This document shows positions 14,450 through 40,435 of a stretch of 44,544 nt of DNA, in pieces. This DNA is from Lysobacteraceae bacterium. GTDB lineage: Bacteria; Pseudomonadota; Gammaproteobacteria; Xanthomonadales; Ahniellaceae. The stretch is from contig JAJTHZ010000112.1 of assembly GCA_021299185.1 (NCBI GenBank), forward strand, positions 1 through 44,544. Reading direction: 5' to 3'. The position numbers were made by a program, and so were the translations under genes. The first letter of the stretch is position 1. Every line of letters begins with the position of its first letter. The notes under the pieces are model-generated. The model had not been told where the DNA came from, did not search any database, and saw only the letters and a program-made list of their open reading frames with translations.

Positions 14450-16284
14450 CACTGGCAGCTCCGGTTGCCGCACTTCACGAAACGCACGTCGCGCTCGTTG
14501 GTAGCGGCGGAGAACGCGCGGTAGGCCACCACCGGCAGGCCGTCCGCGCCGATCGCCAGCGACGGAGCGCCGGGTGCGCTGCTGGTTCCGCCGAGCACCA
14601 GCGTGCCGAGGGTGTTCGCCGCCGTGCATCCGGCATTCCCGCAGCGGACGATCCGCAGTCCCGACAAGCCGGCGCTTTCGATGAATGCGATGGTGGGGAT
14701 GCCGTCGTCGCCGACCGCGATGCGCGTGCTGAACACATTGGAGCCCGCGGCCGAAACGGCGGTGATGGTGTTGCCGCTGCTGCAGTTCGCATTGCCGCAG
14801 CGGGCGAACCTGAGCGTGCTGGTCGAATCGTCGCGGTAGGCGATCACGGCTGCCCCATCCGGCCCGACGGCGATCGAGTTGTTCGAGCCGACGAGGTTGG
14901 CCGGATCGTCCACGGTGACGGTCGAACGGCTGCTGCAGTCGGCATTGGTGCAGCGGGCGAAGCGCAGCAGGCCGTTGGTGTCGTCCCGGTACGCGATCAC
15001 GGGCAGGCCGTCGCCACCGACCGCCATCGACGGCGAGCCCGAATTGGCGACGGCAGCATCGACCGCGATGCGCGCCTGCGCGACGCTGCAGGTCGGGTTC
15101 GCGCAGCGGATAGGGTGCAATTGGCCGGAGCGCTGGTAGGCGACCACGGGCTGCAGGTCGGCGGGTGGCACCACGATGGACGTGCGCTCCTGCTCCACTG
15201 CAGTGTCCAGGGTTCTCAGGTCCACGTTCGTGCAGGCGGCATCCAGGCAGCGGGCGACGCGCAGCTCCAGCGTCGAAGACGCCACATAGCTGATCACCGG
15301 TAGGCCGCCGCTGCCGATCGCGATGGCGTTGAAGCGGCCGGTGCTTCCGGTGGCGTCCAGCACGCGGATCTGCGCCGGCCGTCGGCAGGCCGAATCCACG
15401 CAGCGCGCGAACTTCAGGTCGCCGTCCGTGCCGTCCCAGTAGCTCATCACGGGCAAGCCGTCGGCGCCGATCGCCAGCGAGGGCTCGTCGACCAGGTTCA
15501 CCGGCGGATCGTCGACCACCGCCAGCGAGGCCACGCCGGGCACGGGTTCGCAGGCCACGCCGCCATTGGCATCGACGCCGCGGAAGTATTCGCCGATCGG
15601 GCAGGTGCCACTGATGCGCGCCTGCACCTGGCTGGTGTCGATCTGCGCCAGCCGCACGGCCGCGGGCGCGAGTTGCACCGGGCCGACCGCGCCGGGTGCG
15701 ATCTGCGTCGGGCCGACGCCGCCGGGGGCGATGCCGATCGTGCCGCTGCCGGTGATGGTGCCGCCGGACAGGCCCGTGCCGGCGACCACGCTGGTCACCG
15801 TGCCGCCGCTGTCGTTGTCGATGCCATCGGCGAGCCCCGCCGGCACGCCGGTCAGGCCCGACCAGGGCGCCGCGCTGGCCGCCGTCGCGCGCAGGGCCTC
15901 GGGCGTGGCGCGCACCAGTTGGCGCGGCGCCAGGATGGTGTAGCCGCCGGTGGCCGCGCCGGGGCGCACGCGCAGTTCGAGGAAGCGTTGCTGGCCCGCG
16001 AAAGGCATGGCCCCGAAGTCGAGCGCCAGGGTGAACACGCCCGCCTCGACCGGCACGTCGCCGAAGTCGGGCGCGCAGGCGATCGGCACCGGATTCGACG
16101 GCGAATCGAACAGGCAGACCTGCAGATCGTAGAGCCCGGTGGCCGGCTGGCCCGATTCGGTCAACTGGCCCTGGTAGGTGAAGCTGGTGCCGAGCGGCTG
16201 CGCCGGCGCGGCGAATGGCACTGCGCAGGCGGCAAACCAGATCACGAGGCGTTGGGTCGGACGGGCAGCGTTTCGTGAGGGCAT
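14449..16284 (-). CDS. secreted repeat protein, probable beta-propeller with tail-fibre-like stalk
   Basis: 611-residue exported protein. The signal peptide (MPSRNAARPTQRLVIW... cut near AAPAQ) leads into a domain with FTYQGQLTESGQPATGLYDLQ, common in secreted proteins with tail-fibre-like parts. A glycine-rich linker follows with stalk-like lines (TVTSVVAGTGLSGGTITGSG; PTQIAPGAVGPVQLAPAAV). From about residue 250 there are seven or more repeats of about 50 residues, with consensus S.AIG.DGLPV..YRD....LRFARC.N..C. These are spaced like propeller blades and each carries a cysteine pair. The ATG at 16284 gives the signal peptide. It lacks the GFE tail, but the overlapping downstream gene has one. 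Divergent from the 16455 gene. Confidence 0.75.
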   Translation of the reverse strand: MPSRNAARPTQRLVIWFAACAVPFAAPAQPLGTSFTYQGQLTESGQPATGLYDLQVCLFDSPSNPVPIACAPDFGDVPVEAGVFTLALDFGAMPFAGQQRFLELRVRPGAATGGYTILAPRQLVRATPEALRATAASAAPWSGLTGVPAGLADGIDNDSGGTVTSVVAGTGLSGGTITGSGTIGIAPGGVGPTQIAPGAVGPVQLAPAAVRLAQIDTSQVQARISGTCPIGEYFRGVDANGGVACEPVPGVASLAVVDDPPVNLVDEPSLAIGADGLPVMSYWDGTDGDLKFARCVDSACRRPAQIRVLDATGSTGRFNAIAIGSGGLPVISYVASSTLELRVARCLDAACTNVDLRTLDTAVEQERTSIVVPPADLQPVVAYQRSGQLHPIRCANPTCSVAQARIAVDAAVANSGSPSMAVGGDGLPVIAYRDDTNGLLRFARCTNADCSSRSTVTVDDPANLVGSNNSIAVGPDGAAVIAYRDDSTSTLRFARCGNANCSSGNTITAVSAAGSNVFSTRIAVGDDGIPTIAFIESAGLSGLRIVRCGNAGCTAANTLGTLVLGGTSSAPGAPSLAIGADGLPVVAYRAFSAATNERDVRFVKCGNRSCQ

Positions 16285-16321
16285 GGGCACGGCTCCGGAG
16301 TTCGTCACTGGCGACCGGACC

Positions 16322-16392
16322 CGGAATGCCGCGGACCGGGGAAACCGAACGGCCGCAGCGCGCGTTCGCTTCCCCGCGCGTCCGGCATTCCG
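16322..16392. promoter_or_regulatory. 10-bp inverted repeat in a divergent intergenic region
   Basis: CGGAATGCCG (16322-16331) and its exact reverse complement CGGCATTCCG (16383-16392) lie 51 bases apart. They are central in the 170-bp gap between two divergent exported-protein genes. The arms could be a looping operator pair for a regulator of both genes. Confidence 0.45.
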
Positions 16393-16454
16393 ATCCGCGA
16401 GCCCGCCCGGCATCGACCGCTGCGGCCGCGTCGCACCTTTCCGGGGAGATACCG

Positions 16455-19400
16455 ATGAACCGCCCGCTCCTGCGTGGCCTGCTCCTGTGGGCCTGTCTCT
16501 GGCCCGGCGTCGCGCCGGCGGCGAACTTCCTGGTCCGCAACGCCGGTTCCGGCGCCGACAGCAACACCGCCGACAACGTGTGCAGCACAGCGACGCCGGC
16601 CAACGCCAACACCTGCACCCTGCGCGCGGCGATCCAGCAGGGCAATGCGCTGGCCGGCACGCACAGCGTGACCTTCGATCCGGCGGTGCAGACGATCGTG
16701 CTGTCGGCCTCGCTGCCGCAGGTCACCAGCCGCTTCACCTTCGACGGCAGCAATCCCGCGAATGGCGCCAGCGGCGGGCGGGTGGTGATCGACGGCGGGC
16801 AGGTCAACGGCTGCTTCGACCTGCGTGAAACCTCCACCGCGGTCAGTCCCAACGGCGCGCGTGGTTCGACGGTGAAGAACTTCGTGATCCGCCGCTGCCA
16901 GGGCGCCGGCATCTCGCTCAGCGGGCACGGCTACACGATCACCGGCAACCGCATCGGCACCAATCCTGCCGGCAGCGCCGCTTCGGGTGGCGCCGACGCC
17001 AACACGGGCGACGGCATCTCGGTGTCGGGCACGGTCACGCCGCCGCCGGCCGCGCCCAACATCGCAAGCCTCGTCGCCGACCCGCCGCAGACCTATGGCG
17101 CGATCGCCGCCTATTCGGCCTCCCTGCAGACCATCCTCGCCGCGGTCGCGAGCCCGAACCTCATCAGCGGCAACGTGGTGTCGGGCAACAACGGCGTCGG
17201 CATCGTGCTGTTCGGGCAGGGCACGGTGAACACCATCGTGGCCGGCAACATCGTGGGCCTGAGCGCCGACGGGCTGGCCGCCGTACCCAACGGCCGCGGG
17301 CCGGGCAACAGGGACGGCATCCGGCTTGAGGGCACGGCCTGGGGCAACTTCATCGGCCCCGGCAACCTGGTCAGCGGCAACAGCGGCAGCGGCATCGCCC
17401 TGCAGTCGGGCGCGGTGCTGCTGCCGAACTTCGTCGCCGGCAACCTGGTCGGCCTCGGCAGCGCGCCGACCGACGTCGGCAATGCCGAGAACGGGATCAC
17501 CGTCGATTCGCGCCCCAACGGCAACGCCGATCCCGGGCTCGACAACCCGACCGGGTTCGCCGCCTTCATCGGCCCGGCCAACACCATCAGCGACAACCGC
17601 AGCGACGCCGGCGGCGCCGACTTCGACGTGGTCGCCGCGGACACCTCGGGCGGGCTGCTGGTCACCGGCGCCAGCCGCGGCGTCGAGGTGTTCGCCAACG
17701 TGGTCGGCCTCGCGACCTTCCCGGCGGGCGCGACGCCGCTGGGCCAGTTGCAGTACGGCAACAGCGGCAACGGCATGGTGATCACCGTGCCCGGCGTGCG
17801 CATCAGCCGCAACCTCGTGCTGGCCAACGGCCGCCACGGCATCCTGCTGCGCGGCGCGGCGACGACCGGCACGCGGATCCTCGGCAACTTCATCGGCGTG
17901 TCGGTGCCCACCGGTCTGTCGCCGGTGGTCTCGCTCGGCAACGCCGGCGACGGCATCCACGTCTTTGCCGCCGGCGCCAGCACCATCGGCGGGCCGGCCG
18001 CGAGCGACCGCAACACCATCGCCGCCAACGGCCGCAACGGCATCGCGCTGCGCCAGGGTTCGGTCACCGCCGGCTGGGCCAACCTGATCCAGCGCAACGC
18101 GATCTATGGCAACGCGCGCGGCGGCAGCGGCATCGGCATCGACCTCGAGCGGGTGCCGAACCTGCCGGACGGGTTCAATCCCAACGCGCTGCCGACCAAC
18201 TACGCCAACTTCGACCAGCTGGCGCCGATCCTGTGCGGTGGCGACCCGCTGCCGCCGGAATGCGGCGGCGGCAGCGGGCCCTCGTTCGGTGGCGGCGGCA
18301 CTGCGTTGCGCTGGACCCTGCCGCTGCGACCGCCGCTGTTGTCCTACCCGCTGCGCGTCGAGTTCTTCGCGCTGCCCGCCGACGGCTCCGGCATGAGCTT
18401 CCTCGGCGAGCAGCAGGTGACGGTGGACACGCTCGGTCGTCCGACCGGCGCAGGCTGCAGCAACGGCATCTGCGCGGCCACCGTCGGCGGCAGCACGGAC
18501 ACCAGCGGGCAGTCGATCGTGGCCACCGCCACCGACCTGCTGCTGGCCGACGTGCCGCCGACCGGCGACCAGCCGCCGCAGGCCCTGTCGCCGTCGAACA
18601 ACACCTCGGAGTTCTCGACGCCGGTGGCCGCGGTGCGCGCGCTCGAGGTCGCCACGCCGGCGCCGCTGCCGCCGGCGACGACGCAGACGCCGTACGCGCT
18701 CGCGTTCCAGGCGGTCGGCGGCTCGGGGACGTACACGAACTGGAACGTCGCCGCCGGTGCGCTGCCGTCCGGGCTCGTGCTCGCGCCGGCCACTGGCGTG
18801 CTGTCGGGCTCGCCCACGGCGGCGGGCACGTTCAACTTCGCGGTGCGCGTCACCGACAGCGACGGCGCGCAGGCGACGGGCGGGTACGCGATCACGGTCA
18901 CCGCCTTGCCGGCACTGGCGATCACCACCGCCTCGCCGCTGCCGCAGGCCACGGTGGGCAGCGCCTACAGCCGCACCTTCGGCGCCACCGGCGGCAGCGG
19001 CGGCTACACCGGCTGGACCGTCGGCATCGGCAGCGCGCCGCCGGGGCTGTCGCTGGCTTCCGGCACCGGCGTGCTCGCGGGCACGCCGACCACGCCCGGC
19101 ACCTACGAGTTCATCGTCCAGGTCTCCGACAGCAGCGACAACCTCGCCAGCCGCGGCTACACGTTGAGCGTGGTGCCGGCGCCGGTGCCGTTGGCGATCA
19201 GCACCGCGCCGCCGCTGCCCGCGGCGACCGAGGGCGCGGACTACAGCGTCGACTTCGACGCCACCGGCGGCAGCGGCGTGTATGCCGGCTGGTCGGTCAG
19301 CGCGGGCATGCTGCCGGGCGGCCTCGTGCTGGACGCGGCCACCGGCGTGGCCAGCGGGCGGCCGACCGCGGCGGGCAGCTTCGACTTCACCGTGCGCGTG

Positions 19401-20825
19401 GTCGACGGCGCCGGTGCCAGCGCCACGCGGGCCTACACGCTGGCCGTCGCGGCGGCGCCGCCGTCGCCGCCGGCGCCGCGCTACAGCGTGACGCCGTCGC
19501 GGATCGACTTCGGCGCGGTGCGGGTCGGCACCTCGGCCACCGTGCCGGTGGTGGTGCGCAACATCTCGCGCACCCCGTTCAACCCGGACATCGAGATCAG
19601 CGGCGATCCGATCCTGCTGCTTAACTCCGCGTTCTCCGCCAACGACGGCACCTGCAACACCACGCTGGCGGTCGGGGCTTCGTGCACCATGAACGTCATC
19701 TTCCGCCCGCGCCGCGGCGGCGGGGTGTCGGCTTCGGGCAGTGCGCGGGTGAGCACGCCGTTCATCGGCAGCATCACGACCACGCTCGCCAACCTCGAGC
19801 TGGTCGGCGTCGGTGACGGCCGCCTGGTCGACCTCGGTCCGGCGGGCATCGACTTCGGCACCCAGGTCACCGGCACCACGACCTCGGTCGCGATCTCGAT
19901 CGCCAATCCGACCGGCTCGCGGCTGCGCGTGTCGGGCGGCGCGCTGACCAGCAGCGCGGGCTTCCAGGGGCCGATCTCCGGCTGCGGCGCGACGCTGGAT
20001 CCGGGCGCGTCGTGCAGCATCGTCTATCGCTTCGTGCCCGCCGTGCAGGGCGCGTTCCAAAGCGCGGCGCGCTTGCGCTTCGAGCAGGACTCGGGCCTGC
20101 TGCTGCCCTTGTTCAGCGACACCTTCGACATCCTGCTCGCCGGCATCGGCACCAACGTGGCGCAGGCCACGTCGACCCGCCCGGTGACGCTGGACTTCGG
20201 CCCGGTGCAGGTCGGCCGCAGCGCCACCCTGCTGGTGACCACGCAGAACGTGTCGGCCGCCAACGTCAGCGTCGGCGGCGGCACCTTCCCGTCCGCCGAC
20301 GTCGCCTGGCAGCGCGGACCGGCCTGCGCTGCGCCCACCGCGCCCGGCGGAACCTGCCTGCTCGACTATTCGTTCCTGCCGCGCGAGGCGATCGACTACG
20401 CGATCAACACCGCGCTCACCGTGACCCAGGGCGCGCAGTCGCGGCAGGTCGCCCTGAGCCTGGCCGGGCAGGGCACCGGCACGCTGGCGCGCATCGCGCC
20501 CATGCGCGTCGACCTCGGCCGCGTGCCGGTCAACGGCAGCAGCAGCGCGCAGGTGACGATCAGCAACACCAGCGAGGTCACGCTCGCGGTCTCCAGTTCG
20601 CTCGCCACGCCTTTCGTGCGCCTCGTCGGCTGCGGTGCCTCGCTGGCGCCGGGCGCGAGCTGCACCTTGACCTACCGGCTCGATGGCGCTCCCGAACTGG
20701 TCGGCTTCCAGACCGCCGACGCGCGGATCCGGCTCGAGAACGTCGCCGGCGGCTACCTGCAGCAGTCGGTGGTCACGCTGACCGGCGAAGTGGTCGACGC
20801 CATCTTCGAGGACGGCTTCGAGTAG
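16455..20825 (+). CDS. giant secreted parallel beta-helix protein with PIG and ASH-like domains
   Basis: 1,456-residue exported protein. The signal peptide is residues 1-23 (cut near APAAN). A CSLREA-like start (NTCTLRAAIQQGNALAG) leads into a right-handed beta-helix of about 550 residues rich in GN.I..N/ISGN turns. Three He_PIG-type Ig-like repeats at about 733-1000 carry G.PPG/L.L...TGV..G.PT..G...F.V.V.D. Four ASH/choice-of-anchor-D-type domains at about 1009-1440 carry (I/L)DFG.V.VG....V...N and GASC...Y.F.P. It ends AIFEDGFE. GGGGAG lies before the ATG. The layout suggests a cell-surface or matrix protein; there is no catalytic motif, and some beta-helix proteins are lyases. Confidence 0.85.
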   Translation: MNRPLLRGLLLWACLWPGVAPAANFLVRNAGSGADSNTADNVCSTATPANANTCTLRAAIQQGNALAGTHSVTFDPAVQTIVLSASLPQVTSRFTFDGSNPANGASGGRVVIDGGQVNGCFDLRETSTAVSPNGARGSTVKNFVIRRCQGAGISLSGHGYTITGNRIGTNPAGSAASGGADANTGDGISVSGTVTPPPAAPNIASLVADPPQTYGAIAAYSASLQTILAAVASPNLISGNVVSGNNGVGIVLFGQGTVNTIVAGNIVGLSADGLAAVPNGRGPGNRDGIRLEGTAWGNFIGPGNLVSGNSGSGIALQSGAVLLPNFVAGNLVGLGSAPTDVGNAENGITVDSRPNGNADPGLDNPTGFAAFIGPANTISDNRSDAGGADFDVVAADTSGGLLVTGASRGVEVFANVVGLATFPAGATPLGQLQYGNSGNGMVITVPGVRISRNLVLANGRHGILLRGAATTGTRILGNFIGVSVPTGLSPVVSLGNAGDGIHVFAAGASTIGGPAASDRNTIAANGRNGIALRQGSVTAGWANLIQRNAIYGNARGGSGIGIDLERVPNLPDGFNPNALPTNYANFDQLAPILCGGDPLPPECGGGSGPSFGGGGTALRWTLPLRPPLLSYPLRVEFFALPADGSGMSFLGEQQVTVDTLGRPTGAGCSNGICAATVGGSTDTSGQSIVATATDLLLADVPPTGDQPPQALSPSNNTSEFSTPVAAVRALEVATPAPLPPATTQTPYALAFQAVGGSGTYTNWNVAAGALPSGLVLAPATGVLSGSPTAAGTFNFAVRVTDSDGAQATGGYAITVTALPALAITTASPLPQATVGSAYSRTFGATGGSGGYTGWTVGIGSAPPGLSLASGTGVLAGTPTTPGTYEFIVQVSDSSDNLASRGYTLSVVPAPVPLAISTAPPLPAATEGADYSVDFDATGGSGVYAGWSVSAGMLPGGLVLDAATGVASGRPTAAGSFDFTVRVVDGAGASATRAYTLAVAAAPPSPPAPRYSVTPSRIDFGAVRVGTSATVPVVVRNISRTPFNPDIEISGDPILLLNSAFSANDGTCNTTLAVGASCTMNVIFRPRRGGGVSASGSARVSTPFIGSITTTLANLELVGVGDGRLVDLGPAGIDFGTQVTGTTTSVAISIANPTGSRLRVSGGALTSSAGFQGPISGCGATLDPGASCSIVYRFVPAVQGAFQSAARLRFEQDSGLLLPLFSDTFDILLAGIGTNVAQATSTRPVTLDFGPVQVGRSATLLVTTQNVSAANVSVGGGTFPSADVAWQRGPACAAPTAPGGTCLLDYSFLPREAIDYAINTALTVTQGAQSRQVALSLAGQGTGTLARIAPMRVDLGRVPVNGSSSAQVTISNTSEVTLAVSSSLATPFVRLVGCGASLAPGASCTLTYRLDGAPELVGFQTADARIRLENVAGGYLQQSVVTLTGEVVDAIFEDGFE

Positions 20826-20899: not shown

Positions 20900-21790
20900 A
20901 TGGCGGGAGCGATCACCAACCTGGTGTTCCAGGGCGGTGGGGTGAAAGGTATTGCGTACGCGGGGGCGTTGCAGGCGCTCGAGCGGCGCGGGCTGCTGCC
21001 CGGCGTGCGCGGGCTGGCGAGGGCTTCGGCCGGCGCCTTCACCGCGATGCTGGTGGCGGTGGGCTGCGATGCGGCGACCATCGCGCGCATCGCCACCGGC
21101 ACCGACTACCGGTCGCTCGAGGACCACTTCGACCCGCTGCGGCTGGCTACCCACTACGGCCTGTACCGCGGCGAGGCGCTGCACGCGTGGATCGCCGGCG
21201 CCTTCGCCAGCACCGGGCTCGACCCGCGGCTGGACTTCGACGCGCTCGCCGCCGCCACCGGCCGCGACCTGCGCGTGTTCGCCACCGACCTCAGCCACCG
21301 CATGGCGCGCGAATTCTCGGCGCGCGCCACGCCGCGCGTGGCGGTGGTCGACGCGGTGCGCGCCTCGATGTCGATCCCGCTGATGTTTCCCGCGTGGCGA
21401 TTCACCGGCGGCGAGCCCGACGACCATCTCTACGTCGATGGCGGCGTGGTGATGAACTACCCCATCGCCGCCTTCGACGAGGACGCCCCGGCGCACGCCA
21501 CGCTCGGCTTCCGCCTCGTGCCCGGTTCCGCGCCGGTGCCGATCCCGGGGGCGTGGGACCATCCGGCGAGCTACGTGCACGCGCTGTTCGGCGCCATCCT
21601 CGCCGCACAGTCGATCGACGTCGCGGCGCAGCCGCTGGACCGCATGCGCAGCGTGGCGATCGACGACTTCGGCATCGCCGCCACCGATTTCCACCTCATG
21701 GCCGCGCAGCAGCAGGCCCTGTTCGACGCCGGCCGCAGCGCCACCGACGCCTTCCTCGACGCCCGCGCGTCCCGCCCAGGAGCCGCATGA
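20900..21790 (+). CDS. patatin-like phospholipase
   Basis: 296-residue cytoplasmic patatin-fold lipid acyl hydrolase. The oxyanion motif GGGVKG (residues 12-17) is followed by the nucleophile Ser43 in RASAGAF. The usual GxSxG has Ala in place of the first Gly. The catalytic Asp is Asp180 in VDGGVVMNYP. Family members release fatty acids from phospholipids or other acyl lipids. It is the first gene of a five-gene operon and overlaps the P450 start by four bases. Context suggests that it frees the fatty acid used by the following haem enzymes; this is inference. Confidence 0.88.
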   Translation: MAGAITNLVFQGGGVKGIAYAGALQALERRGLLPGVRGLARASAGAFTAMLVAVGCDAATIARIATGTDYRSLEDHFDPLRLATHYGLYRGEALHAWIAGAFASTGLDPRLDFDALAAATGRDLRVFATDLSHRMAREFSARATPRVAVVDAVRASMSIPLMFPAWRFTGGEPDDHLYVDGGVVMNYPIAAFDEDAPAHATLGFRLVPGSAPVPIPGAWDHPASYVHALFGAILAAQSIDVAAQPLDRMRSVAIDDFGIAATDFHLMAAQQQALFDAGRSATDAFLDARASRPGAA

Positions 21791-23010
21791 AGACCGCCCC
21801 GTTCTCGCTCGCCGACCATCGCCCCGGCCGCATCGGCCAGGTCGTGCTGGACCTGCTGATGCGCCGCATCGTGCCCGGGCTGTTCGGACTGCTGCGCGGC
21901 ATCGCACCGGTGTTCCGCGTGCCGTTCACCAACGTCACCCTGGTCACCCGTTTCGACGACGTGCAGGAGATCTGCTCGCGCCACGACGAATTCCCCGTGC
22001 CCTACCAGCGCATGGTCGACCACCTCGACTGGGTGCCGACCTTCCTGCTGGCGATGAAGGACACGCCCGAGTACCGGCAGACCCTGGCCCAGGTGCACGC
22101 GCTGTGGCGCTACGAGGACCTGCCGCGCGTGCGCGCGATCGCGAAAGAGGCGAGCGAGGCCGCGCTGGCGCGCGCCGGCGGACGCATCGACGCGATCCAG
22201 GACGTGATGGTGCCGGTCACGCTGGCGGTGATCGAGCGCTACTACGGCATCCCGGTGCGCGAGGCCGACTTCGCGCCGTTCCGCGACGGCGCGATGTACA
22301 TCGCGGGCTATCTGTTCGGCCCGCAGACCCTGTCGCCGGAGAAGATCGCGACCGCGAAGCAGGCGATCGCCGGCGTGTGGAAGGTGATCGACGAGGCGAT
22401 CGCCGCCGCGCGCGCCAACCCGCTGCCGGAAGACACCATCATCGGCCGCTGCCACGCGCTGAAGATCACCGACGATGCGCATTTGCGCTCCTACCTGATG
22501 GGCATGATCGTCGGCTACCTGCCGACCAACACCAATGCCAACGGCCGCGTGCTCGACGTGGTGATGAACGAGCCGGCGGCGCTGGACGCCGCGCTCGCCG
22601 CGGCAGGGCAGGGCGACTACGACGGCATCCTGCGCGTGGTCCACGAGGCCCTGCGCATGAACTACATCCTGCCCGGCCTGTGGCGCACCACGTCCGAGCC
22701 GCGGGTGATCGGCGTCGGCACCACGCGCGAGCGCACGATCGAGGCCGGGCGCCTGATCTACATCTCGTTCATGGCCGCGATGATGGACCCGCGGCGCATC
22801 GCCGACCCGAAGCGCTTCGACCCGAACCGCTCGAAGGACGTCTACATGGTCTACGGCTACCAGTTCCACTACTGCGTGGGCTGGGCGATCTCGGATGCGA
22901 TGATGATGGAGATCTTCATGGCCATCATGCGCTGCCGTCCGCGCCAGCAGGGCCGACTGGTGATGAACGGCAACTTCCCCTGGAACCTCGTGCTCGAGTA
23001 CGGGGCCTGA
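21787..23010 (+). CDS. atypical cytochrome P450
   Basis: 407-residue soluble P450. The K-helix ExxR motif is Glu287-Ala-Leu-Arg290. The haem-thiolate Cys363 sits in VYGYQFHYCVGWAISDA. It keeps Gly357, His361 and Gly365 of the usual FGxGxHxCxG but has Tyr for the Phe and Gln359 for the second Gly. The I-helix region (about 238-254, MGMIVGYLPTNTNANGR) lacks the usual acidic-Thr pair that serves oxygen activation, as also happens in P450s that act on hydroperoxides (CYP74, CYP8, CYP152 types). There is no ferredoxin or reductase gene nearby. Together these suggest a peroxide- or hydroperoxide-using P450. Confidence 0.85.
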   Translation: MKTAPFSLADHRPGRIGQVVLDLLMRRIVPGLFGLLRGIAPVFRVPFTNVTLVTRFDDVQEICSRHDEFPVPYQRMVDHLDWVPTFLLAMKDTPEYRQTLAQVHALWRYEDLPRVRAIAKEASEAALARAGGRIDAIQDVMVPVTLAVIERYYGIPVREADFAPFRDGAMYIAGYLFGPQTLSPEKIATAKQAIAGVWKVIDEAIAAARANPLPEDTIIGRCHALKITDDAHLRSYLMGMIVGYLPTNTNANGRVLDVVMNEPAALDAALAAAGQGDYDGILRVVHEALRMNYILPGLWRTTSEPRVIGVGTTRERTIEAGRLIYISFMAAMMDPRRIADPKRFDPNRSKDVYMVYGYQFHYCVGWAISDAMMMEIFMAIMRCRPRQQGRLVMNGNFPWNLVLEYGA

Positions 23011-23013
23011 GCC

Positions 23014-23664
23014 ATGGCCTTCATGCAGCAGTCGTTCGAGGGCAAGGCCACGCCGATGACGGTGATCACGCCGATGCGTCCGCGCTGGCGGCCGCTGGTG
23101 TGGGCAATCCTCGCCGTGTTCCGGCACTTGAAGCTCGGCGTGGTCAAGGAACTGGCCTTCATCCACTTCGCGCGCTGGCTGCTGGTCAAGCGCGGGCGCT
23201 TGCCGCACCTCTCGCCGCGGCAGCCGGTGGAGCGGCTGGACGACGACTGGTTCGTGTTCACCACCAACTTCAACGGGCCGTGGGACCAGTACATCGACGC
23301 CTTCGGCATGGTGGGCGGCGTGCGCGGCGGGCTGGACTGGCTGTGGTGGACCTCGCGTGGCTTCCCCGGCGCGTGGCCGATGCGGCCGTTCAAGCGCTAC
23401 ATCCGGTACTTCGAATATCCGCTGGACCTCTATTGCAACGCCTATCCGGGTGCCTCGGTGCGCGACATCGCCTGCGCGCTGGAACTCTCGTCGCGGCTCG
23501 ACGCCTTCCTCGCCGCCACGCCGCCGGACGAGGACGCGGCCGCCTTCGCGCGGCGCTGGTGCGCCTTCCTCGACGCGGTCGCGCCGACCCTGGGCGACAC
23601 CGGTGCGCAGTTGCAGGAGATCCCGTCGCCGCACAGCAAGGTGCCGCTGGAGTTGCGCTCGTGA
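23014..23664 (+). CDS. uncharacterised protein A of the P450/DyP operon
   Basis: 216-residue protein that I cannot assign to a named family. A mildly hydrophobic helix (about 24-60) is followed by FIHFARWLLVKRG and then DDDWFVFTTNFNGPWDQYIDAF (about 76-97). This pattern resembles one strand-helix unit of a ferredoxin-like (dimeric alpha/beta-barrel) domain, the fold DyP peroxidases use. The middle is rich in Trp and Tyr (LDWLWWTSRGFPGAW). It starts three bases after the P450 stop, and its stop overlaps the next gene by four bases (GTGA). It may be an accessory or substrate-handling protein for the operon's enzymes. Real gene: high confidence; role: unknown. Confidence 0.8.
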   Translation: MAFMQQSFEGKATPMTVITPMRPRWRPLVWAILAVFRHLKLGVVKELAFIHFARWLLVKRGRLPHLSPRQPVERLDDDWFVFTTNFNGPWDQYIDAFGMVGGVRGGLDWLWWTSRGFPGAWPMRPFKRYIRYFEYPLDLYCNAYPGASVRDIACALELSSRLDAFLAATPPDEDAAAFARRWCAFLDAVAPTLGDTGAQLQEIPSPHSKVPLELRS

Positions 23665-24248
23665 GCCGCGTGCCCAAGCCGCATTCGTTCCTCACCGCGC
23701 TGTCGCCGATCGACCGCCAGGACGACGCCGGCGGCGCGCGACTGGCCGCGATCCGCGCCGCGCTCGCCGCGCACACGCAGTACGGCAGCCCGTTCCGCGA
23801 GTGCCCGACGGCCCACATGGTGCGCATGCAGGTGATCGACGCGCTCAAGCCCGCGATGGGCGACACCTCGGGCGTGCACCTGCGCTCGGCGTGGCTGCTG
23901 TGCGTGGCCGAGCTCGACGGCGGCGTGGACGACTTCCTCGATGCGCTGTACCGCACCGATCCGGATTTCGTGCATGCGACCTGGGGGCAGTGCACGGGCT
24001 ACCCGCCCTATCGCGGGGCGGTGTTCCTGCGCCGCTACATCGCGCGCTGCCGGATGGGCGGTGAGCTGCCGTATGCGGCGTTTCCGGCCAGCGTGGCGCA
24101 GGTGCAGGCCGCGATCGCGCGCAAGGAGTGCCTCGGGGCGCTCGCCGCCGCCACCCAGGGCCTCGACGATGCCGCGGCGCAGGCGGCCTTCCGCGCCGCG
24201 CGCGGCGAGCTCGAGCGTCCCACGGCCACGCGCCCGGGAGGCCTCTGA
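23661..24248 (+). CDS. uncharacterised protein B of the P450/DyP operon
   Basis: 195-residue protein starting at GTG 23661, which overlaps the preceding stop. No named family is recognised. Residues 51-80 (AHMVRMQVIDALK, then LRSAWLLCVAELDGGVDDFLDALYR) parallel the FIHFARWLLV ... FVFTTNFNGPWDQYIDAF layout of protein A. This suggests related ferredoxin-like domains. The centre has WGQCTGYP and FLRRYIARCRM with two cysteines. It ends two bases before the DyP gene. The first ATG in frame lies far downstream, so the GTG is well supported. It may form a complex with protein A or with the peroxidase. Confidence 0.8.
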   Translation: MSRVPKPHSFLTALSPIDRQDDAGGARLAAIRAALAAHTQYGSPFRECPTAHMVRMQVIDALKPAMGDTSGVHLRSAWLLCVAELDGGVDDFLDALYRTDPDFVHATWGQCTGYPPYRGAVFLRRYIARCRMGGELPYAAFPASVAQVQAAIARKECLGALAAATQGLDDAAAQAAFRAARGELERPTATRPGGL

Positions 24249-24250
24249 CC

Positions 24251-25648
24251 ATGGCCGCACCGGTGCTCGACCTGACCGACATCCAGGCCCAGTTCGGCGG
24301 CTACGACCGGCACTGGCCGGTGGGCCGCTTCTGGTACCTGCGCTGGGAAACGCCCGACGCCGGCCGCGCCCTGCTGGCGCGCCTGCCGCCGCTGGCGCAT
24401 TGCCTGCACCTCGACGATTCCGACACCGCGATCGCGGTCAACGTGGCCTTCACCCATCGCGGGCTGGCCGCGCTCGGCCTCGATCCGACGATGCTGGACT
24501 CGTTCCCCGAGGATTTCCGCCAGGGCATGCGCGCGCGCGCGCCGCTCAACGGCGACACCGGGCCCAACGACCCGCAGTGCTGGGACGACGCGTGGCAGGG
24601 CGGTGGCGTGCACGGTTGGGTCGGTGCCTATGCGCGCAGCGCGCAGGCGCTGGAGGAGTTCGCGCGCGACTTCGAGACCTGGTTGTCGGCGACGCCGCAC
24701 CTGGTGCGCGCGGGCAGCGAGGACGTGTCGCGCTTCTACGCCGATCCCGCGCGGCCGATGCACATCGACGACCCTGCCTCCAACCCGAGCCGCCCGGTGG
24801 TACTGGAGCATTTCGGCTTCCGCGACGGCGTGAGCAACCCGCCGGTCGCCGGCATGCCGCAGGATGGCCCGGCCACCGGGATCGGGATGCTGAACAAGGA
24901 CGGCTCCTGGTCGCCGCTGCCGGCCGGTGAATTCCTGCTCGGCCAGGTCGACGCCGATGGCGAGGTGCCGCCCGGGCCGCAGCCCGAGTCGCTGGCGCGC
25001 AATGGCTCGTTCATGGTGCTGCGCAAACTGGAACAGGACGTCGACGGTTTCCGCGCCTACGTCGCGGGCGTCGCCGCCGGCGCCGGCATCGGGGCCGACG
25101 CGCTCGCCGCGCGCTTCTTCGGTCGCCATCGCGACGGCACGCCGCTGGCCGATCCGTCGACCCTGAACGGCTTCACCTTCGGCGACGATCCGCAGGGGCG
25201 GCGCTGCCCGCTGGGCGCCCACCTGCGGCGCGCCAACCCGCGCGACAGCATGGGGTTCGGCACCGTGCTGGTGGATCGCCACCGCATCCTGCGAAATGGC
25301 ATCACCTACGGCCAGCCGGTGCCGCACGGCGTGCTGCAGGCCGAGGTCAACGGGGACGCCGGCCAGGGCCTGATGTTCATCGCGTTCAACACTTCGTTCG
25401 CCGGCCAGTTCGAGTTCGTGACCCAGCAGTGGCTCAACTTCGGCAACGACCAGAACCAGGGCAACGACCGCGACCCGGTGGTCGGCGTGCAGGTGCCGCC
25501 GGCGCGGTTCGTGGTGCCCGGCGACGGCCTGCGCCCGACCGTGGTCTGCGCCGGACTGCCGCAGTTCGTGCGCCTGCGCGGCGGGGACTACTTCTTCCTG
25601 CCGGGCATCGCGGCGGTGGCGGCGCTGGCGTCCGGGCCGGGGGGGTGA
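24251..25648 (+). CDS. DyP-type haem peroxidase
   Basis: 465-residue dye-decolorising-peroxidase-type enzyme. The distal motif is GFRDG (residues 189-193, Asp192). The proximal haem ligand is His324 in RRCPLGAHLRRANPRD. The distal Arg is probably Arg348 in ILRNGITYG. The segment FEFVTQQWLN near residue 387 is also typical. No Tat or Sec signal is present, so it is cytoplasmic. The length fits the longer DyP classes. DyPs use peroxide to oxidise dyes, phenols and other substrates. As the last gene of the lipase-P450 operon it may share a peroxide or lipid hydroperoxide substrate with the P450. Confidence 0.92.
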   Translation: MAAPVLDLTDIQAQFGGYDRHWPVGRFWYLRWETPDAGRALLARLPPLAHCLHLDDSDTAIAVNVAFTHRGLAALGLDPTMLDSFPEDFRQGMRARAPLNGDTGPNDPQCWDDAWQGGGVHGWVGAYARSAQALEEFARDFETWLSATPHLVRAGSEDVSRFYADPARPMHIDDPASNPSRPVVLEHFGFRDGVSNPPVAGMPQDGPATGIGMLNKDGSWSPLPAGEFLLGQVDADGEVPPGPQPESLARNGSFMVLRKLEQDVDGFRAYVAGVAAGAGIGADALAARFFGRHRDGTPLADPSTLNGFTFGDDPQGRRCPLGAHLRRANPRDSMGFGTVLVDRHRILRNGITYGQPVPHGVLQAEVNGDAGQGLMFIAFNTSFAGQFEFVTQQWLNFGNDQNQGNDRDPVVGVQVPPARFVVPGDGLRPTVVCAGLPQFVRLRGGDYFFLPGIAAVAALASGPGG

Positions 25649-25687: not shown

Positions 25688-25742
25688 CCTTGCTTTGCGG
25701 GCCCGTGACCCGGGCGGGTCGCCCGCTGCCAGGGGCAACATC

Positions 25743-27506
25743 GTGCACGGCTTGCGGCTGCCGACATCCGATCCTCGCGCGCGCTGGCGCGGCCATGCCG
25801 CGGCGATGCTGTGCGCCCTGCTGGCCCTGCTGGCCGCCGGCAGCGCGCGCGCGCAGGCCCCGGTGCTGGAGGTCGACCGCAACTTCCGCAGCGCGGACCT
25901 GCTGCCGCACCTGGCGCTGCTGCGCGACCGCTCGCGCGAGATGGACATCGCCGCCGCCCGCGCCGCCGCCGCCGAGGGCCGCTTCGAGCGCGCGCGCGAG
26001 GACCAGCGCGGGATGGGCTTCGACGAATCCGCGTGGTGGGCCCGCGCCATCCTGCGCAACACCGGCGACCGCCCGCTGCGGCTGGTGGTGCGGCAGAACT
26101 ACCCGCTGACCGATTTCGTCGACCTGTGGACCGCCGACGGCGTCGGCGGCACGCTGCACGTGGCCACCGGCGACCTGCTGCCCTTCGGCTCGCGGCCGAT
26201 CCGCCACCACGAGTTCCTGGTCCCGATCGACGTGCCGGCCGGAGCCGAGCAGCAGGTCTACATCCGCATCCAGACCGAAGGCTCGCTCAACCTCGGCCTG
26301 TCCCTGCACGCCGCCGACGAACTGCTGGAGGAGATCGCCGGCGCGCAGATGATGTGGGGCGGTTTCTACGGCAGCATCGCGCTGCTCGCGCTGGGTGCGC
26401 TGCTGCTGTTCGTGCTGGTGCGCGATGCCGCGTTCGGCCATTACGCGGTCTACCTCGTCACCTACGGCTGCTACATGGCGGCCTACAACGGCCTGTCCTT
26501 CCAGTACCTGTGGCCGGACAGCCCGCGCCTGGCGAGCCTGAGCCAGTTGATCCTGCTGCCGCTGTCGCTGTTCTTCCTGCTGCAGTTCTCGCGCGCGATC
26601 CTCGGCCTGACCGAGGTCGCGCCGCGGCTGGAGCGCGTCGCGCTGGTGCTGCAGGGCCTGCTGCTGGCCTGCATCCCGCTGGCCTTCGTCGCCTCCTACC
26701 GGCTGGCGATCCAGCCGCTGGCGGCGCTGACCCTGGCCACCATCGCCTTCCTGATCGTGGCCGCGGTGTACGGCGTGCTCGCGGGGCGAGTGGCGGCACG
26801 CTTCTATCTGTCGGGGCTGGGCGTGTTCCTGCTCGGCGTGCTGGTCTACATGCTCAAGACCTACGGCTGGCTGCCGCACAACGCGCTCACCCAGCACGGC
26901 TTCCAGGTCGGCTCGCTGGCCGAGTTCGTACTGCTGTCGGTGGCGCTCGGCGTGCGCATGAACGAGCTCAAGCGCACCGGCATCACCGACACCCTCACCG
27001 GGCTCGGCAACCGCCGCCACTTCGACGACGTGTTCGCCGCCGAGTTCGAGATCGCGCGCTCGCGGCGCCGCGACCTCGCCCTGCTGGTGGTCGACATCGA
27101 CCGCTTCAAGCAGTTGAACGACACCCGCGGGCATGCCGAGGGCGACCGCGCGCTCAGGGCGCTGTCCGCGATCCTGCAGCGGGTCGTGCGCAAGCCCGAC
27201 GCCGCCTTCCGCTACGGCGGCGAGGAGTTCGTGGTGATGATGCCGGGCAGCGGCGCCGACGCCGCGGTGGCGCTGGCCGAACAACTGCGCACGCGGGTGC
27301 AGGCCGAGACCGCCAGCGGGCACGCACTGACGATCAGCGTCGGCGTGGCCGACATGGACATGCGTTCCGCGGCCACCGCCGAGGAAATGTTCCAGCGCGC
27401 CGATGCCTCGCTGTATGCCGCCAAGGCCGGCGGGCGCAATCGCGTCGTGTTGCGCCAGGCCGATCGCGGACGTGCCGTGCCGGGCGAGGGCGCGCGGGCG
27501 TCCTGA
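25743..27506 (+). CDS. 7TM-sensor diguanylate cyclase
   Basis: 587-residue membrane diguanylate cyclase. After a signal peptide (hydrophobic MLCALLALLAAGSARAQ) comes a periplasmic 7TMR-DISM-extracellular-type beta domain (about 60-195). Seven membrane helices follow (about 200-395), then a cytoplasmic GGDEF domain. Its motif YGGEEFV and the upstream DTLTGLGNRRHFD and DIDRFKQLND segments are intact, so it should make c-di-GMP. An inhibitory I-site RKPD sits five residues before GGEEF. I prefer GTG 25743 because AGGGG lies seven bases before it; ATG 25806 is an alternative that keeps the signal peptide. A good promoter precedes it. Confidence 0.88.
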   Translation: MHGLRLPTSDPRARWRGHAAAMLCALLALLAAGSARAQAPVLEVDRNFRSADLLPHLALLRDRSREMDIAAARAAAAEGRFERAREDQRGMGFDESAWWARAILRNTGDRPLRLVVRQNYPLTDFVDLWTADGVGGTLHVATGDLLPFGSRPIRHHEFLVPIDVPAGAEQQVYIRIQTEGSLNLGLSLHAADELLEEIAGAQMMWGGFYGSIALLALGALLLFVLVRDAAFGHYAVYLVTYGCYMAAYNGLSFQYLWPDSPRLASLSQLILLPLSLFFLLQFSRAILGLTEVAPRLERVALVLQGLLLACIPLAFVASYRLAIQPLAALTLATIAFLIVAAVYGVLAGRVAARFYLSGLGVFLLGVLVYMLKTYGWLPHNALTQHGFQVGSLAEFVLLSVALGVRMNELKRTGITDTLTGLGNRRHFDDVFAAEFEIARSRRRDLALLVVDIDRFKQLNDTRGHAEGDRALRALSAILQRVVRKPDAAFRYGGEEFVVMMPGSGADAAVALAEQLRTRVQAETASGHALTISVGVADMDMRSAATAEEMFQRADASLYAAKAGGRNRVVLRQADRGRAVPGEGARAS

Positions 27507-31643: not shown

Positions 31644-31983
31644 CGGTCGGCGGCGCGTCGCAGGGCTCGGTGGCGAGCGTAACGCGGCGAGCAGATGGCG
31701 CAAGCCCCACGGCAGGGCCGGTGGTCCGTCGTAGGGTGGCATGTCCCCAGTTACGGGGCTCGCGGCCCGATCGCGACAGCGCGGCCGGTGTCGCCCTGTG
31801 ATCTCCCGTCATCCGGGTGTGCCCATCGCCTCCGCGCGCCGATGGGGCCTTTGTAGCCGGGTCCTGTCGCAAATGCGGATCGGCGTCGTAGATCTTCTCG
31901 AAGCCCTCCCTGCGCGCCACCGGCGTGCGGGGCCGCGACGGCCTGCGCCAACGCCTGCCGGCACCCGAACCGAGGAGATCGAC
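31644..31983. other. 340-bp divergent intergenic region
   Basis: It lies between the ECF sigma gene and the delta-60-repeat gene. The frame of the latter is open far upstream but without homology. GAGGAG (31974-31979) is its ribosome binding site. TGTCGCAAAT and CGTCGTAGAT near 31867-31900 look promoter-like, but their spacing fits no standard rule. Confidence 0.4.
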
Positions 31984-33357
31984 ATGAACTGCTTTCCATC
32001 GCCCATGGCGCGCTGCGCGATCCTGCTCGCCGGCCTTGCGGCGGGCCCGCTGCAGGCCCAGGAGAACATCCTCGACCCCAGCTATTCGGGCGACGGCCGC
32101 CAGACGGTTTCCTTCGACCAGGGCGGTGGCAACAACGATCGCCCGGTCGACGCGATCCGCACCAACAGCCTCATGACGGTGCTGGTCGGCAACGTGACCA
32201 GCGCCGCGGGCAACCGCGTCGGCCTCGTGCGGCTCGACCTCAACGGCAACCTGTCTCCCGGCCTCGGCGTCGACGGCACGCGGATCCTCGACCTGTGCAT
32301 GGACGTCGCGGTGCGTGACGCCTTCTATTCGACCGGCTCGAACAAGATCTACGTGCTCGGCGAAACCATCACCTGCAGCGTGGATGGCACGCGCGACGGG
32401 CGCATCGCGCGTTTGCTGGCCGATGGCTCCCCGGATCCCACCTTCGGCGTGGACGGGGCGCTGAGCTTCCGGCTGCAGGACGGCGAGCAGACCGTTGACC
32501 GCGTGTTCAGCATGCTGGAAGACGCGAGCAACGGCCAGATCGTGGTCGCGGGCAGCGTGGTGTCGCAGGGGCAGGGGCTGGAGCGCCCGGTGGCCGTGCG
32601 CCTCACCGGCGCCGGCGTGAATGCCGTCGTTTTCGGCCCGCACAGCAGCGACAACGGCCGTCTGGTCGACGTACAGCGGGTCCTGCCGAGTGGCTATCTG
32701 TTCCTGTTCCAGCGCGACGGCAACGCCTTGGCCAGGTCCGGCGGTTTCTTCCGCCTCGACATCGATTTCATGCCGGTCGGGACCTTCGGCAGCTTCGGCT
32801 TCGTCGGCATCGCCGACAGCGGCGTGCAGATCGAGGGCGGATGCAGCGCGGATCGGCGCCTCGTGCTGCGCCGGCTCGCGACCACGTTGGGCCACCACTA
32901 CATCCTCGGCGACGATGGATTCCCGTCCAATTCGCTGGCCTACGCCAGCGTGGCAATGGCGGGTGGCGCCGGTCGTGCGCTGCGGTGCGGTGGCCCCGGG
33001 ATCGTCGTCCAGGCCGCGCTGGCCGACGACATCAACGAGGCGGCAAGCGTATACGTCGCGGGCAGCTGCCCGCTGGGCCGGCGCACGGCGATGTGCGTGC
33101 AGCGCCTGCTCAAGCGAATCGAAAGCCCCCTGCTCGACGTCGATCCGACGTTCAACAGCGCCGAGCCAGGCGCCGCGCTGTCGGTCGAGTTCCCGGCGGA
33201 CCAAGCGTCCGAGCCGTCGAGCGAGGCGGTCGTCGTCCAGCGCCGCAACGGGCGCACGCTGCTGCTGGGCTCGCGTCGCTGGAGCGGATCCGACCGCGAC
33301 TTCGCGGCGGCGCAGTTCTTCCGCGCGCCGTCCCTGCTGCGCGATGGCTTCGAATAG
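31984..33357 (+). CDS. secreted delta-60-repeat protein with GFE tail
   Basis: 457-residue exported protein. The signal peptide covers residues 1-26 (MNCFPSPMARCAILLAGLAAGPLQAQ). Delta-60-type repeats follow, marked by LDPSYSGDGRQTVSFD, PDPTFGVDGALSF, LVGNVTSAAG and VVAGSVVSQG-like strands. The predicted fold is a beta-propeller. Six or so cysteines probably form disulphides. It ends SLLRDGFE, the tail shared with other exported proteins here. The strong GAGGAG site fixes the start. It lies between the ECF sigma gene and the kinase gene and may belong to the regulon of either. Function unknown. Confidence 0.8.
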   Translation: MNCFPSPMARCAILLAGLAAGPLQAQENILDPSYSGDGRQTVSFDQGGGNNDRPVDAIRTNSLMTVLVGNVTSAAGNRVGLVRLDLNGNLSPGLGVDGTRILDLCMDVAVRDAFYSTGSNKIYVLGETITCSVDGTRDGRIARLLADGSPDPTFGVDGALSFRLQDGEQTVDRVFSMLEDASNGQIVVAGSVVSQGQGLERPVAVRLTGAGVNAVVFGPHSSDNGRLVDVQRVLPSGYLFLFQRDGNALARSGGFFRLDIDFMPVGTFGSFGFVGIADSGVQIEGGCSADRRLVLRRLATTLGHHYILGDDGFPSNSLAYASVAMAGGAGRALRCGGPGIVVQAALADDINEAASVYVAGSCPLGRRTAMCVQRLLKRIESPLLDVDPTFNSAEPGAALSVEFPADQASEPSSEAVVVQRRNGRTLLLGSRRWSGSDRDFAAAQFFRAPSLLRDGFE

Positions 33358-38347: not shown

Positions 38348-38366
38348 GGCGCGCTCAGGGCGCGCC
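38348..38366. terminator. hairpin between convergent genes
   Basis: GGCGCGC-TCAGG-GCGCGCC, a 7-bp stem. It overlaps the stop codon of the minus-strand beta-helix gene and lies 10 bases after the hydrolase stop. Weak bidirectional terminator. Confidence 0.4.
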
Positions 38367-39500
38367 GGGCTCGAAGCCGTCGCGGAACACCGGGTCGAGC
38401 GCCTGCAGCTCCAGCGCGCCGACGTCGATGCCGCCGAGCCGGTTGCGCAGCCCGCCGGCCACGTCGAAGCCGTTGAACTGCGGGTAGGCGCCGGGGATCG
38501 GCAGCAGGCCGCGGTCGAGCAGCGGCGAATCGTCGCGCAGTCGGAAGTCGCCGGCCGCGGCGTCGACGAAGCGCGGGTCGCCGGCCACCGGGCGCTCGAT
38601 GGTGCGCGGCAGGCTGCCGATGTCCACCGGCATCAGGCTGTCGCGCACGATCACGCGTTCGCTGCCGTTGGGCGAGACGATCTGGGTGGTGAGGTCGGCA
38701 ATCGGGTTGTCGTGGAAGACGGTGTTGACGATGGCGCTGCTGACGCCGGTGCCGGTGAAGATCGACAGCCCGCAGCCGCGCGGCCCGCCGGTGTTGCCGA
38801 GGCAGCGCCCGCGGGCGAAGGTGCTGTTGGCGACCACGATGCCGCTGCCGTAGGCCGACGGGCTGGAGGTCAATCCCAGCGCGGCATGCCCGAACGCCGA
38901 GTCCGGCGCGTTGTTGAGGTCGAACAGGCTGTTGACCAGCCGGATCATGCCGTTGGCGACGCTGGCGTCGAGTGCGCCGACGAAGTAGCCGCTGTTGCCG
39001 CGGAACACGAGGTTCTCCAGCCACAGTTCGTTGGTCGCGCTGGCCGGCTGCATGAATGCGTTCAGTCCGCCGCCGCGCTGGAAGCCGCTGCCGACGCCGT
39101 TGGCGAAGGTGAGGTTCTCGACGTAGATCCGCGCGCCGGACGTCCTGCCCGCGGGCGGCTGGTGGGCGAGGATCATGATCTGCCGCAGGCCCTGGCCGTC
39201 GAGCACGGTGGCACCGGCGTTCAGCGCGCGCGCGCCGCAGGGCAGGCCACCGCCCTCCGCGTAGCCGCCCACGACCGACAGCCAGCCGGGCTGGGTGTTG
39301 TTGTAGACCAGCGTCGCGTCGACGGCGTAGGTGCCGGCGCGGATGCGGATCTCGTCGTCGCCGGGGGCCTGGGCCGATACCAGGGCCGCGCGCAGTTCGG
39401 CCACGGTGCCGACGCAGAAGGTCGTCGCGCCGGCGGGTGTGCCGGCGCCGAGCACGGCGAACGGGCACCAGAGGGCGAGGGCGAGGCGGGGTCGGTTCAT
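38355..39500 (-). CDS. secreted parallel beta-helix protein with GFE tail
   Basis: 381-residue exported protein. The signal peptide covers about residues 1-25 (cut near AGATT). The opening TFCVGTVAELRAALVSAQ and IRIRAGTYAVDATLVYNN is typical of right-handed beta-helix proteins. PbH1-type turns follow (IYVENLTFANGVG, LWLENLVFRGNSG, IRLVNSLFDLNNAP, IVVANSTFARG, AIVNTVFHDNP). The end GGIDVGALELQALDPVFRDGFEPGAP combines the DVGA.E.Q motif common to this family with the GFE tail shared in this window. It is divergent from the C26 peptidase gene. Surface role inferred; no catalytic site identified. Confidence 0.8.
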   Translation of the reverse strand: MNRPRLALALWCPFAVLGAGTPAGATTFCVGTVAELRAALVSAQAPGDDEIRIRAGTYAVDATLVYNNTQPGWLSVVGGYAEGGGLPCGARALNAGATVLDGQGLRQIMILAHQPPAGRTSGARIYVENLTFANGVGSGFQRGGGLNAFMQPASATNELWLENLVFRGNSGYFVGALDASVANGMIRLVNSLFDLNNAPDSAFGHAALGLTSSPSAYGSGIVVANSTFARGRCLGNTGGPRGCGLSIFTGTGVSSAIVNTVFHDNPIADLTTQIVSPNGSERVIVRDSLMPVDIGSLPRTIERPVAGDPRFVDAAAGDFRLRDDSPLLDRGLLPIPGAYPQFNGFDVAGGLRNRLGGIDVGALELQALDPVFRDGFEPGAP

Positions 39501-39584
39501 GGGCTCTGGCGTCGGCGGGGATGTCCTGTCATACGCAGCATCGCCCCCGCTTCCGCAATGCCGGGGTGGTCCGATCCGACGATG

Positions 39585-39601
39585 CGTGCGACCATCGCAC
39601 G
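39585..39601. promoter_or_regulatory. 17-bp palindrome touching the C26 peptidase start codon
   Basis: CGTGCGA-CCA-TCGCACG, perfect 7-bp arms, ends one base before the ATG at 39602. It lies in the 100-bp divergent gap. It could be an operator or an RNA hairpin at the start site. No Shine-Dalgarno is seen. Confidence 0.45.
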
Positions 39602-40435
39602 ATGCTGCCCGCGACCCACCCGCCGGCCGCGCCCCACGCATCGGACCGCGCCAGCCGCCACCGCCCGCTGATCGGCGTCTCGCCGCGCCTGCTGCGCGAG
39701 GTGCCGCCGCCGCTCGGCTTCCGCGGCAAGACCCTGCAGTACCTCGAGCAGTCGGTCGCGCACTGGGTGATGGAGGCCGGCGCGCTGGCGGTGATGATCC
39801 CCACCATCGAGACCGGCGGCATGCTGCGCCGGGGCGATCTGTCCTCGCACGACATGGCCGCCGCGCTCGACGGCCTGCTGCTGCAGGGCGGCGCCGACGT
39901 CGACCCGGTGCTCTACAGCGAGCCGCAGCGCGCCACCCGCGGCCCGCTCAATCCCGCGCGCGACCGCTTCGAGCGCGACCTGATCCTCGCCTTCGCCGCC
40001 GCCGGCAAGCCGGTGCTCGGCATCTGCCGCGGCATGCAGCTGATCAACGTCGCCTTCGGCGGCAGCCTCTACCAGGACCTGGTCAGCGACGGTGCGACGA
40101 ACGTCGAGCACGTCGACGACGCGGGCTACGACCGCCACCTGCATCCCTTGCGCATCGAGCCCGGCGGCGTGCTGGCGTCGCTGTACGGCGACATCGTGGC
40201 GGGCACGGTCAACTCCATCCATCACCAGGGCGTACGGCGGCTCGCGGAAGGATTCGTCGTCGAAGCGCGCGCGCCCGACGGCGTGGTGGAGGCGATCCGC
40301 TCCACCCGCCACGACTTCCTGCTCGGCACCCAGTGGCACCCGGAGTTCCACGCGCCCGACGACCCGGCCGGCCTGCTGCCGACCGCGCCGCTGCTGGCCG
40401 CGCTGGTCGAGGCCGCGCTGCGCGCGCGCGGGTGA
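39602..40435 (+). CDS. class I glutamine amidotransferase, gamma-glutamyl-GABA hydrolase-like (peptidase C26)
   Basis: 277-residue cytoplasmic enzyme of the PuuD/C26 type. The nucleophile is Cys142 in [11 protein letters not shown], and the catalytic His246 and Glu248 lie in [19 protein letters not shown] (90-102) is the family's oxyanion-side motif. Relatives release glutamate from gamma-glutamyl compounds such as gamma-glutamyl-GABA in putrescine breakdown. No other putrescine gene is present, so the substrate is open. ATG 39602 is chosen because the conserved region starts at [10 protein letters not shown]; upstream codons have no homology. Confidence 0.88.

Follow-up and report, generated by a model that had tools for sequence, protein, structure and literature searches.

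Two paired proteins of predicted ferredoxin-like fold accompany a divergent DyP-type peroxidase in bacterial gene cassettes

DyP-type peroxidases use peroxide and have been well studied in vitro; to our knowledge the true substrate and partners of most bacterial members are unknown. Each is composed of two ferredoxin-like domains with the haem in the C-terminal one, and in DyP, as in Cld, it is the C-terminal fold whose cleft holds the haem (PMC7611857). The dimeric alpha+beta barrel superfamily (SCOP 3000089, Pfam clan CL0032) is likewise ferredoxin-like and includes the TcmF2 cyclase (1tuw), WhiE-ORFI (9lmn) and ABM proteins. Among cytochromes P450, loss of the I-helix acid-alcohol pair is a mark of the peroxygenases, and CYP152 has Arg-Pro instead (PMC5818669). 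No description of an operon or fusion combining a DyP and a P450, with or without a barrel protein, was found in the literature searched, mostly that outside subscription journals.

The window, by which we mean the whole stretch of DNA analysed (44,544 nucleotides of a Lysobacteraceae contig), contains an operon in the gene order patatin, P450, A, B and DyP, with junctions that are overlaps or gaps of 2-3 bases; the GTG start of B overlaps the stop codon of A. Pfam names the patatin, the P450 and the DyP only, and not A or B. The operon, the motifs within A and B, and the gene that follows are listed below.

20900-21790, + strand: patatin-like lipase, which opens the operon (Pfam PF01734, E=2e-25)
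21787-23010, + strand: cytochrome P450 of 407 residues (Pfam PF00067), overlapping the patatin stop, with haem Cys363 and, in place of the I-helix acid, Pro246
23014-23664, + strand: protein A, 216 residues, predicted ferredoxin-like alpha+beta barrel with a C-terminal helix pair
23164-23175, + strand: H51-F-A-R54 of A, in predicted strand 2
23266-23304, + strand: N85-F-N-G-P-W-D-Q-Y-I-D-A-F97 of A, a nearly invariant segment running from where strand 3 ends into helix 2
23661-24248, + strand: protein B, 195 residues, GTG start, by profile comparison a paralogue of A, with the same predicted fold
23814-23825, + strand: H52-M-V-R55 of B, in predicted strand 2
23916-23945, + strand: D86-G-G-V-D-D-F-L-D-A95 of B, counterpart of the N-G-x-x-D motif of A
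24251-25648, + strand: DyP-type peroxidase of 465 residues, of the divergent kind that accompanies A/B (Pfam DyP_N, Dyp_perox_C)
25695-27506, + strand: DISM-type sensor diguanylate cyclase (GGDEF), named by eye from its sequence

Relatives of A and B were collected from 80 loci, giving 81 with the window. Plain BLASTP gave no match between A and B or between either protein and the DyP. An HMM iterated from A alone ended up gathering B proteins, and one iterated from B alone gathered A proteins. When 7,906 ORFs were searched, the A-only profile matched the window B (E=5.6e-7) with zero false matches, and it matched 15 B ORFs and otherwise none. The B-only profile listed 67 of the 81 A ORFs at E<10 (median 0.0045) and nothing else; the window A was absent from these 67, and two of them were fused A-B proteins matched through the B half. 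Comparison of the A-only and B-only profiles by hhalign returned a probability of 96%, E=3e-9 and a score of 62.7 vs a maximum of 25.2 for 20 column-shuffled profiles. Judged by these profiles A and B are diverged copies (paralogues) of one family, and the profile-profile check that an earlier note on this DNA had proposed for the two proteins came out in favour of homology.

The earlier note had drawn its comparison from two quoted strings, which are present where it had placed them in A and B, and from a shared layout of H-x-x-R followed by N/D-G-x-x-D-x-Y/L-x-DA. The layout occurs in both proteins, as H51-x-x-R54 then N87-G-P-W-D-Q-Y-I-D-A in A and as H52-x-x-R55 then D86-G-G-V-D-D-F-L-D-A in B, with the correction that B has F at the aromatic position. 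Scanned as a combined pattern, H..R-(15-60)-[ND]G..D.[YLF].DA, it was found in 80 of the 81 A relatives and in none of 7,745 background ORFs (1.24 M residues); of the 80 B relatives, the B of the window was the sole carrier. Because the window B alone among its relatives has the pattern, the exact motif pair is partly the luck of this genome; the underlying layout is real. On the sequence comparisons, the real signal sits in the whole-length profiles and not in the motif match. Conservation within the two groups was uneven. An alignment of 41 diverse A relatives had 32 invariant positions, including H51, N85-F-N-G and W90-D-Q-Y-I-D-A-F, with R54 kept in at least 90%. Only two or three positions were invariant among B relatives; R55 was invariant, H52 was kept in at least 90%, and at least one B had no strand-2 His (G272, which reads YLARF).

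AlphaFold2 models of the window A and the window B were made singly from A-only and B-only alignments, respectively. The model of A was of middling confidence (pLDDT 75, pTM 0.56) and that of B had a pLDDT of 86.4 and a pTM of 0.66. Strands (E) and helices (H) in A were E15-21, H23-37, H43-47, E53-58, E78-84, H90-98 and H101-112 followed by H124-133, E134-136, H147-168 and H175-192, and those in B were E8-17, H26-36, H44-47, E51-61, E73-86, H89-99 and H101-110 followed by H120-130, H145-164 and H170-185. The order beta1-alpha1-beta2-beta3-alpha2-(helix)-beta4 plus a helix pair was common to both models at nearly equal residue numbers, with a short beta4, which spans three residues in A and is reduced to one bridge-type residue (131) in B. 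The best structural matches listed for A were 9lmn_A (Z 8.4, 111 aligned, 3.0 A) and 1tuw (Z 7.2), and the best listed for B was 1tuw, the TcmF2 cyclase (Z 7.7, 99 aligned, 3.4 A); Z scores of 7-8 are middling and frequent between unrelated folds. Those listed by VIA-align for A and B almost all belonged to the dimeric alpha+beta barrel superfamily, and Foldseek agreed. The models therefore predict for A and B the same topology and the same structural neighbours, those of a dimeric alpha+beta barrel of ferredoxin-like type. The suggestion that both are ferredoxin-like domains is borne out at the level of the models, and, judged by their element order and common PDB neighbours, the two predicted folds are not mutually unrelated.

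Like the dimeric alpha+beta barrels, A and B have a predicted beta-alpha-beta-beta-alpha-beta arrangement and find their best structural matches there. Unlike them, A and B match no Pfam or PDB family by sequence, they carry an extra C-terminal helix pair, and most B relatives have a hydrophobic hairpin inserted before that pair. This extra segment aligns ahead of the C-terminal helices and is absent from the short-form B of the window; 67 of 75 B relatives were long, and 66 of the 67 contained a strongly hydrophobic stretch, a possible link to the membrane. Given the tandem A-B and B-A fusions, it is plausible that two ferredoxin-like units, as a dimer or in tandem, close one barrel. Searches with A and B as single sequences and as profiles against Pfam, NCBIfam, PHROGs and PDB sequences gave nothing significant, and 40 relatives of each searched against Pfam, NCBIfam and PDB gave scattered weak matches only. 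The A/B family is without a Pfam, NCBIfam or PDB entry. What seems to be new is the family, together with its near-obligate association with a single kind of DyP; the fold itself is a known one.

The window DyP passed the cut-off for Pfam DyP_N and Dyp_perox_C and matched PDB 8re3 at E=1.5e-54, and in the alignment to 8re3 the distal Asp (GFRDG), the proximal His (GAHLR) and the distal Arg are in place. A DyP gene was located downstream of A-B in 77 of the 77 loci in which the contig continued, the other four of the 81 being contig ends, at a median of 11 nt from the B stop to the first DyP-matched codon. In an even selection of 398 genomes of the phylum, with a DyP clade cut-off of E<1e-10, A/B occurred in 27 and this kind of DyP in 29, every one of the 27 being among the 29 (hypergeometric 7e-40, a value that ignores relatedness). 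In a second set, drawn from the class and comprising 274 genomes, four carried A/B and the same four carried the DyP (4/4). The EfeB/YfeX-like DyPs were commoner, accounting for most matches in 53/200 genomes, and belong to a separate branch, the A/B-linked DyPs clustering apart from them in the DyP tree. Two genomes (G524 and G604) had the DyP only, and their unlinked DyPs fall inside the long-branched A/B-linked group, so this clade may not be exclusive to A/B. The association of A/B with this kind of DyP is near-obligate. Members of the A/B family occur in Pseudomonadota, Planctomycetota, Verrucomicrobiota, Acidobacteriota and one cyanobacterial MAG.

The cassette took the form of separate genes, of B-A fusions and of single chains with a P450, an A-type domain and a DyP, two of them with a detected B-type domain. 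A and B were encoded as one A-B chain in a Nevskia MAG and a Caulobacter MAG (L058 and L075) and in the reverse order, as one B-A chain beside the DyP, in five loci (L088, L173, L174, L175 and L176). Ten genomes or plasmids (L087, L090, L091, L092, L165 and L167-L171) carried the P450, the A-type domain and the DyP, in this order, on a single polypeptide of 1,410-1,644 residues, stop to stop, including Pararhizobium (L090), Sulfitobacter (L091) and Novosphingobium aromaticivorans (L092, WP_011907039.1). Approximately 300 residues separate the P450 from the A-type domain in these chains, which is the expected place of a B-type domain, and an A/B profile detected one in two of the ten (L168 and L169). 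A P450-B-A-DyP layout is shown for these two chains and would be the likely reading of the other eight. The proposal in the earlier note that A and B partner the DyP is upheld by operon order, genome co-occurrence and gene fusion; co-occurrence and fusion demonstrate a shared pathway, not physical contact.

TPR-containing genes preceded the single chains of L087, L090, L091 and L092, two of them annotated as a SARP regulator or guanylate cyclase. On rhizobial plasmids, an A-type domain was fused to a DyP (L095:5767-8763 and L096:6064-7752) next to genes for an endonuclease/exonuclease/phosphatase and a DNA/RNA non-specific endonuclease. In some cassettes a catalase-like gene replaced the P450, namely L088 (8884-10077), L097 (4771-5766), L163, L174-L176, L179 and L180. 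The label is tentative and comes from the annotation of a single record; the best Pfam match of these proteins was PF00199 at E=0.01, under the cut-off, and they matched no PDB chain. In L174 the DyP and the catalase-like part were one ORF of 911 residues.

A P450 was present in 58 of the 81 loci. It was not found beside some cassettes, for example L007 and L094, and is therefore not essential. The haem-thiolate Cys was kept in 57/57 cassette P450s, and the I-helix acid associated with O2 activation was Pro in 55 of the 57, the I-helix register of the window P450 having been set by a second PDB alignment. Like CYP152, the cassette P450 has a disrupted I-helix acid-alcohol pair and a haem Cys; unlike CYP152, with its Arg-Pro, it has Pro-Thr in the form GxxPT and so retains the Thr. 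The window P450 was considered as a CYP152 peroxygenase and rejected as such, with the Thr kept and the CYP152 Arg missing; its nearest NCBIfam models were TIGR04515 and CYP119. Because the I-helix acid is lost, as the acid-alcohol pair is in CYP152, we infer that the cassette P450 may well use peroxide, which is a reasonable reading of the helix and not a claim of CYP152 membership. Use of O2 may nevertheless persist in some P450s that lack the acid. Two neighbouring P450s with Ala at the acid site (L063:8702-10111 and L051:1212-3134) may be unrelated P450s. Apart from A, B, the DyP, the P450 and the patatin, no further gene family recurred in the flanks examined, so that a redox partner was not among the recurrent neighbours.

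We consider it rather probable that the A/B pair is a heterodimeric non-haem barrel and that its members are fixed subunits of an oxidative complex with the divergent-clade DyP and a P450 or catalase-like protein. A and B would presumably bind each other to form the barrel, which would dock the DyP, as the constant haem part, with a second haem part that is a P450 or elsewhere the catalase-like protein. The complex would run on peroxides, a peroxide-driven two-haem system being suggested by the peroxide use of DyPs, the loss of the acid in the P450 and the lack of a recurrent redox partner. Substrate might be held by the barrel pair, or passed by it from one haem site to the other, and would perhaps be lipid hydroperoxides freed by the patatin. 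This choice of substrate is a guess from one oleate hydratase neighbour and the patatin, which was found in 6 of the 81 cassettes, in the same position in the window and in five Kordiimonadaceae-type cassettes only (L002-L006). The wider view that A/B are a new family forming the non-haem core of a modular "DyP + second haem enzyme" machine, in which the barrel couples the two haem centres, is held more tentatively and at somewhat less than even confidence. A divergent kind of DyP has a dedicated and conserved barrel pair, usually together with a P450 seemingly unfit for ordinary O2 activation, and natural single-chain forms such as WP_011907039.1 make the system concrete and testable.

Several other readings bear on the relation of A and B to haem and to the DyP. 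The earlier note had regarded A and B as possible cofactor-free relatives of DyP, and of this the broad fold class stood while common descent is unsupported. A and B resemble the DyP-type peroxidases (TIGR01413, PF21105/PF20628) in fold class and are encoded next door and sometimes in one chain, but they have one ferredoxin-like domain per protein and DyP has two. Comparison of A, B or A+B with a DyP profile by hhalign gave a probability of 0.1-0.3%, hmmscan gave no DyP match for either protein, and neither the GxxDG distal motif nor the DyP proximal-His motif was seen when the two sequences were read by eye. Membership of the DyP family is unsupported on these grounds, and on the models the kinship of A/B to DyP holds at the level of fold class only. 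An origin of A and B as ferredoxin-like domains of DyP that broke off or were duplicated and lost their haem is very unlikely given the hhalign result, even with fold class and operon in common; DyP chains were also not among the 50 matches listed by Foldseek and VIA-align, an absence that in itself excludes nothing. Because both motifs are missing, A and B probably lack haem. A role in binding or delivering haem, as a chaperone or a third haem site like the IsdG/MhuD, Cld and HemQ branches, would agree with the presence of IsdG (1xbw) and MhuD (4nl5 and 6ds7) among the structural matches listed and with the His conserved at strand 2 in both A and B. We regard it as quite improbable, if a little less so than descent from DyP, in view of the missing motifs, the loss of the strand-2 His in the G272 protein and the position of the haem in DyP and Cld, where the C-terminal fold holds it in a cleft (PMC7611857).

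A conserved operon acting in one pathway, for example that of a single secondary metabolite, without any physical complex is also unlikely, although operon conservation alone cannot discriminate and the P450, catalase-like and patatin parts are variably present. Against it, single-chain fusions recur in different genomes and A/B were never seen without this kind of DyP in the sampled genomes. A stronger competitor, which we still judge to be the less likely account, is that A and B are cofactor-free alpha+beta barrel enzymes (oxygenase, isomerase or cyclase) acting on the product of the DyP or the P450, with an active site made of H51/R54 and the NFNGxWDQ loop and with the TcmF2 cyclase and ABM-type oxygenases as models. 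The closest folds are such enzymes, and the number of invariant positions in A, from sequences of several phyla, exceeds the expectation for a mere scaffold. The invariant H51 and NFNGxWDQYIDAF of A could make up a catalytic site, or one for metal or haem, instead of a surface for binding. However, B has the same fold and belongs to the same cassette with almost none of this invariance, function cannot be read from fold, and the fusions with the two haem enzymes point to a structural part as well. The reading of A as a cofactor-free enzyme ranks close behind that of A and B as subunits of a non-haem barrel.

Other features of the window were also recorded. The nucleophile elbow of the patatin is R-A-S-A-G, vs G-A-S-A-G in the Kordiimonas homologue (L005). 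The diguanylate cyclase at 25695-27506 probably has its true start further in and is a possible regulator; in L004, L005 and L006, homologues with 41-43% identity lie ahead of the patatin on its upstream side. Three window ORFs, 16182-20825, 31735-33357 (+) and 38355-39947 (-), have a DGFE tail at or near their end, reading IFEDGFE, LLRDGFE and VFRDGFEPGAP, which judged by eye could be a C-terminal sorting tag.
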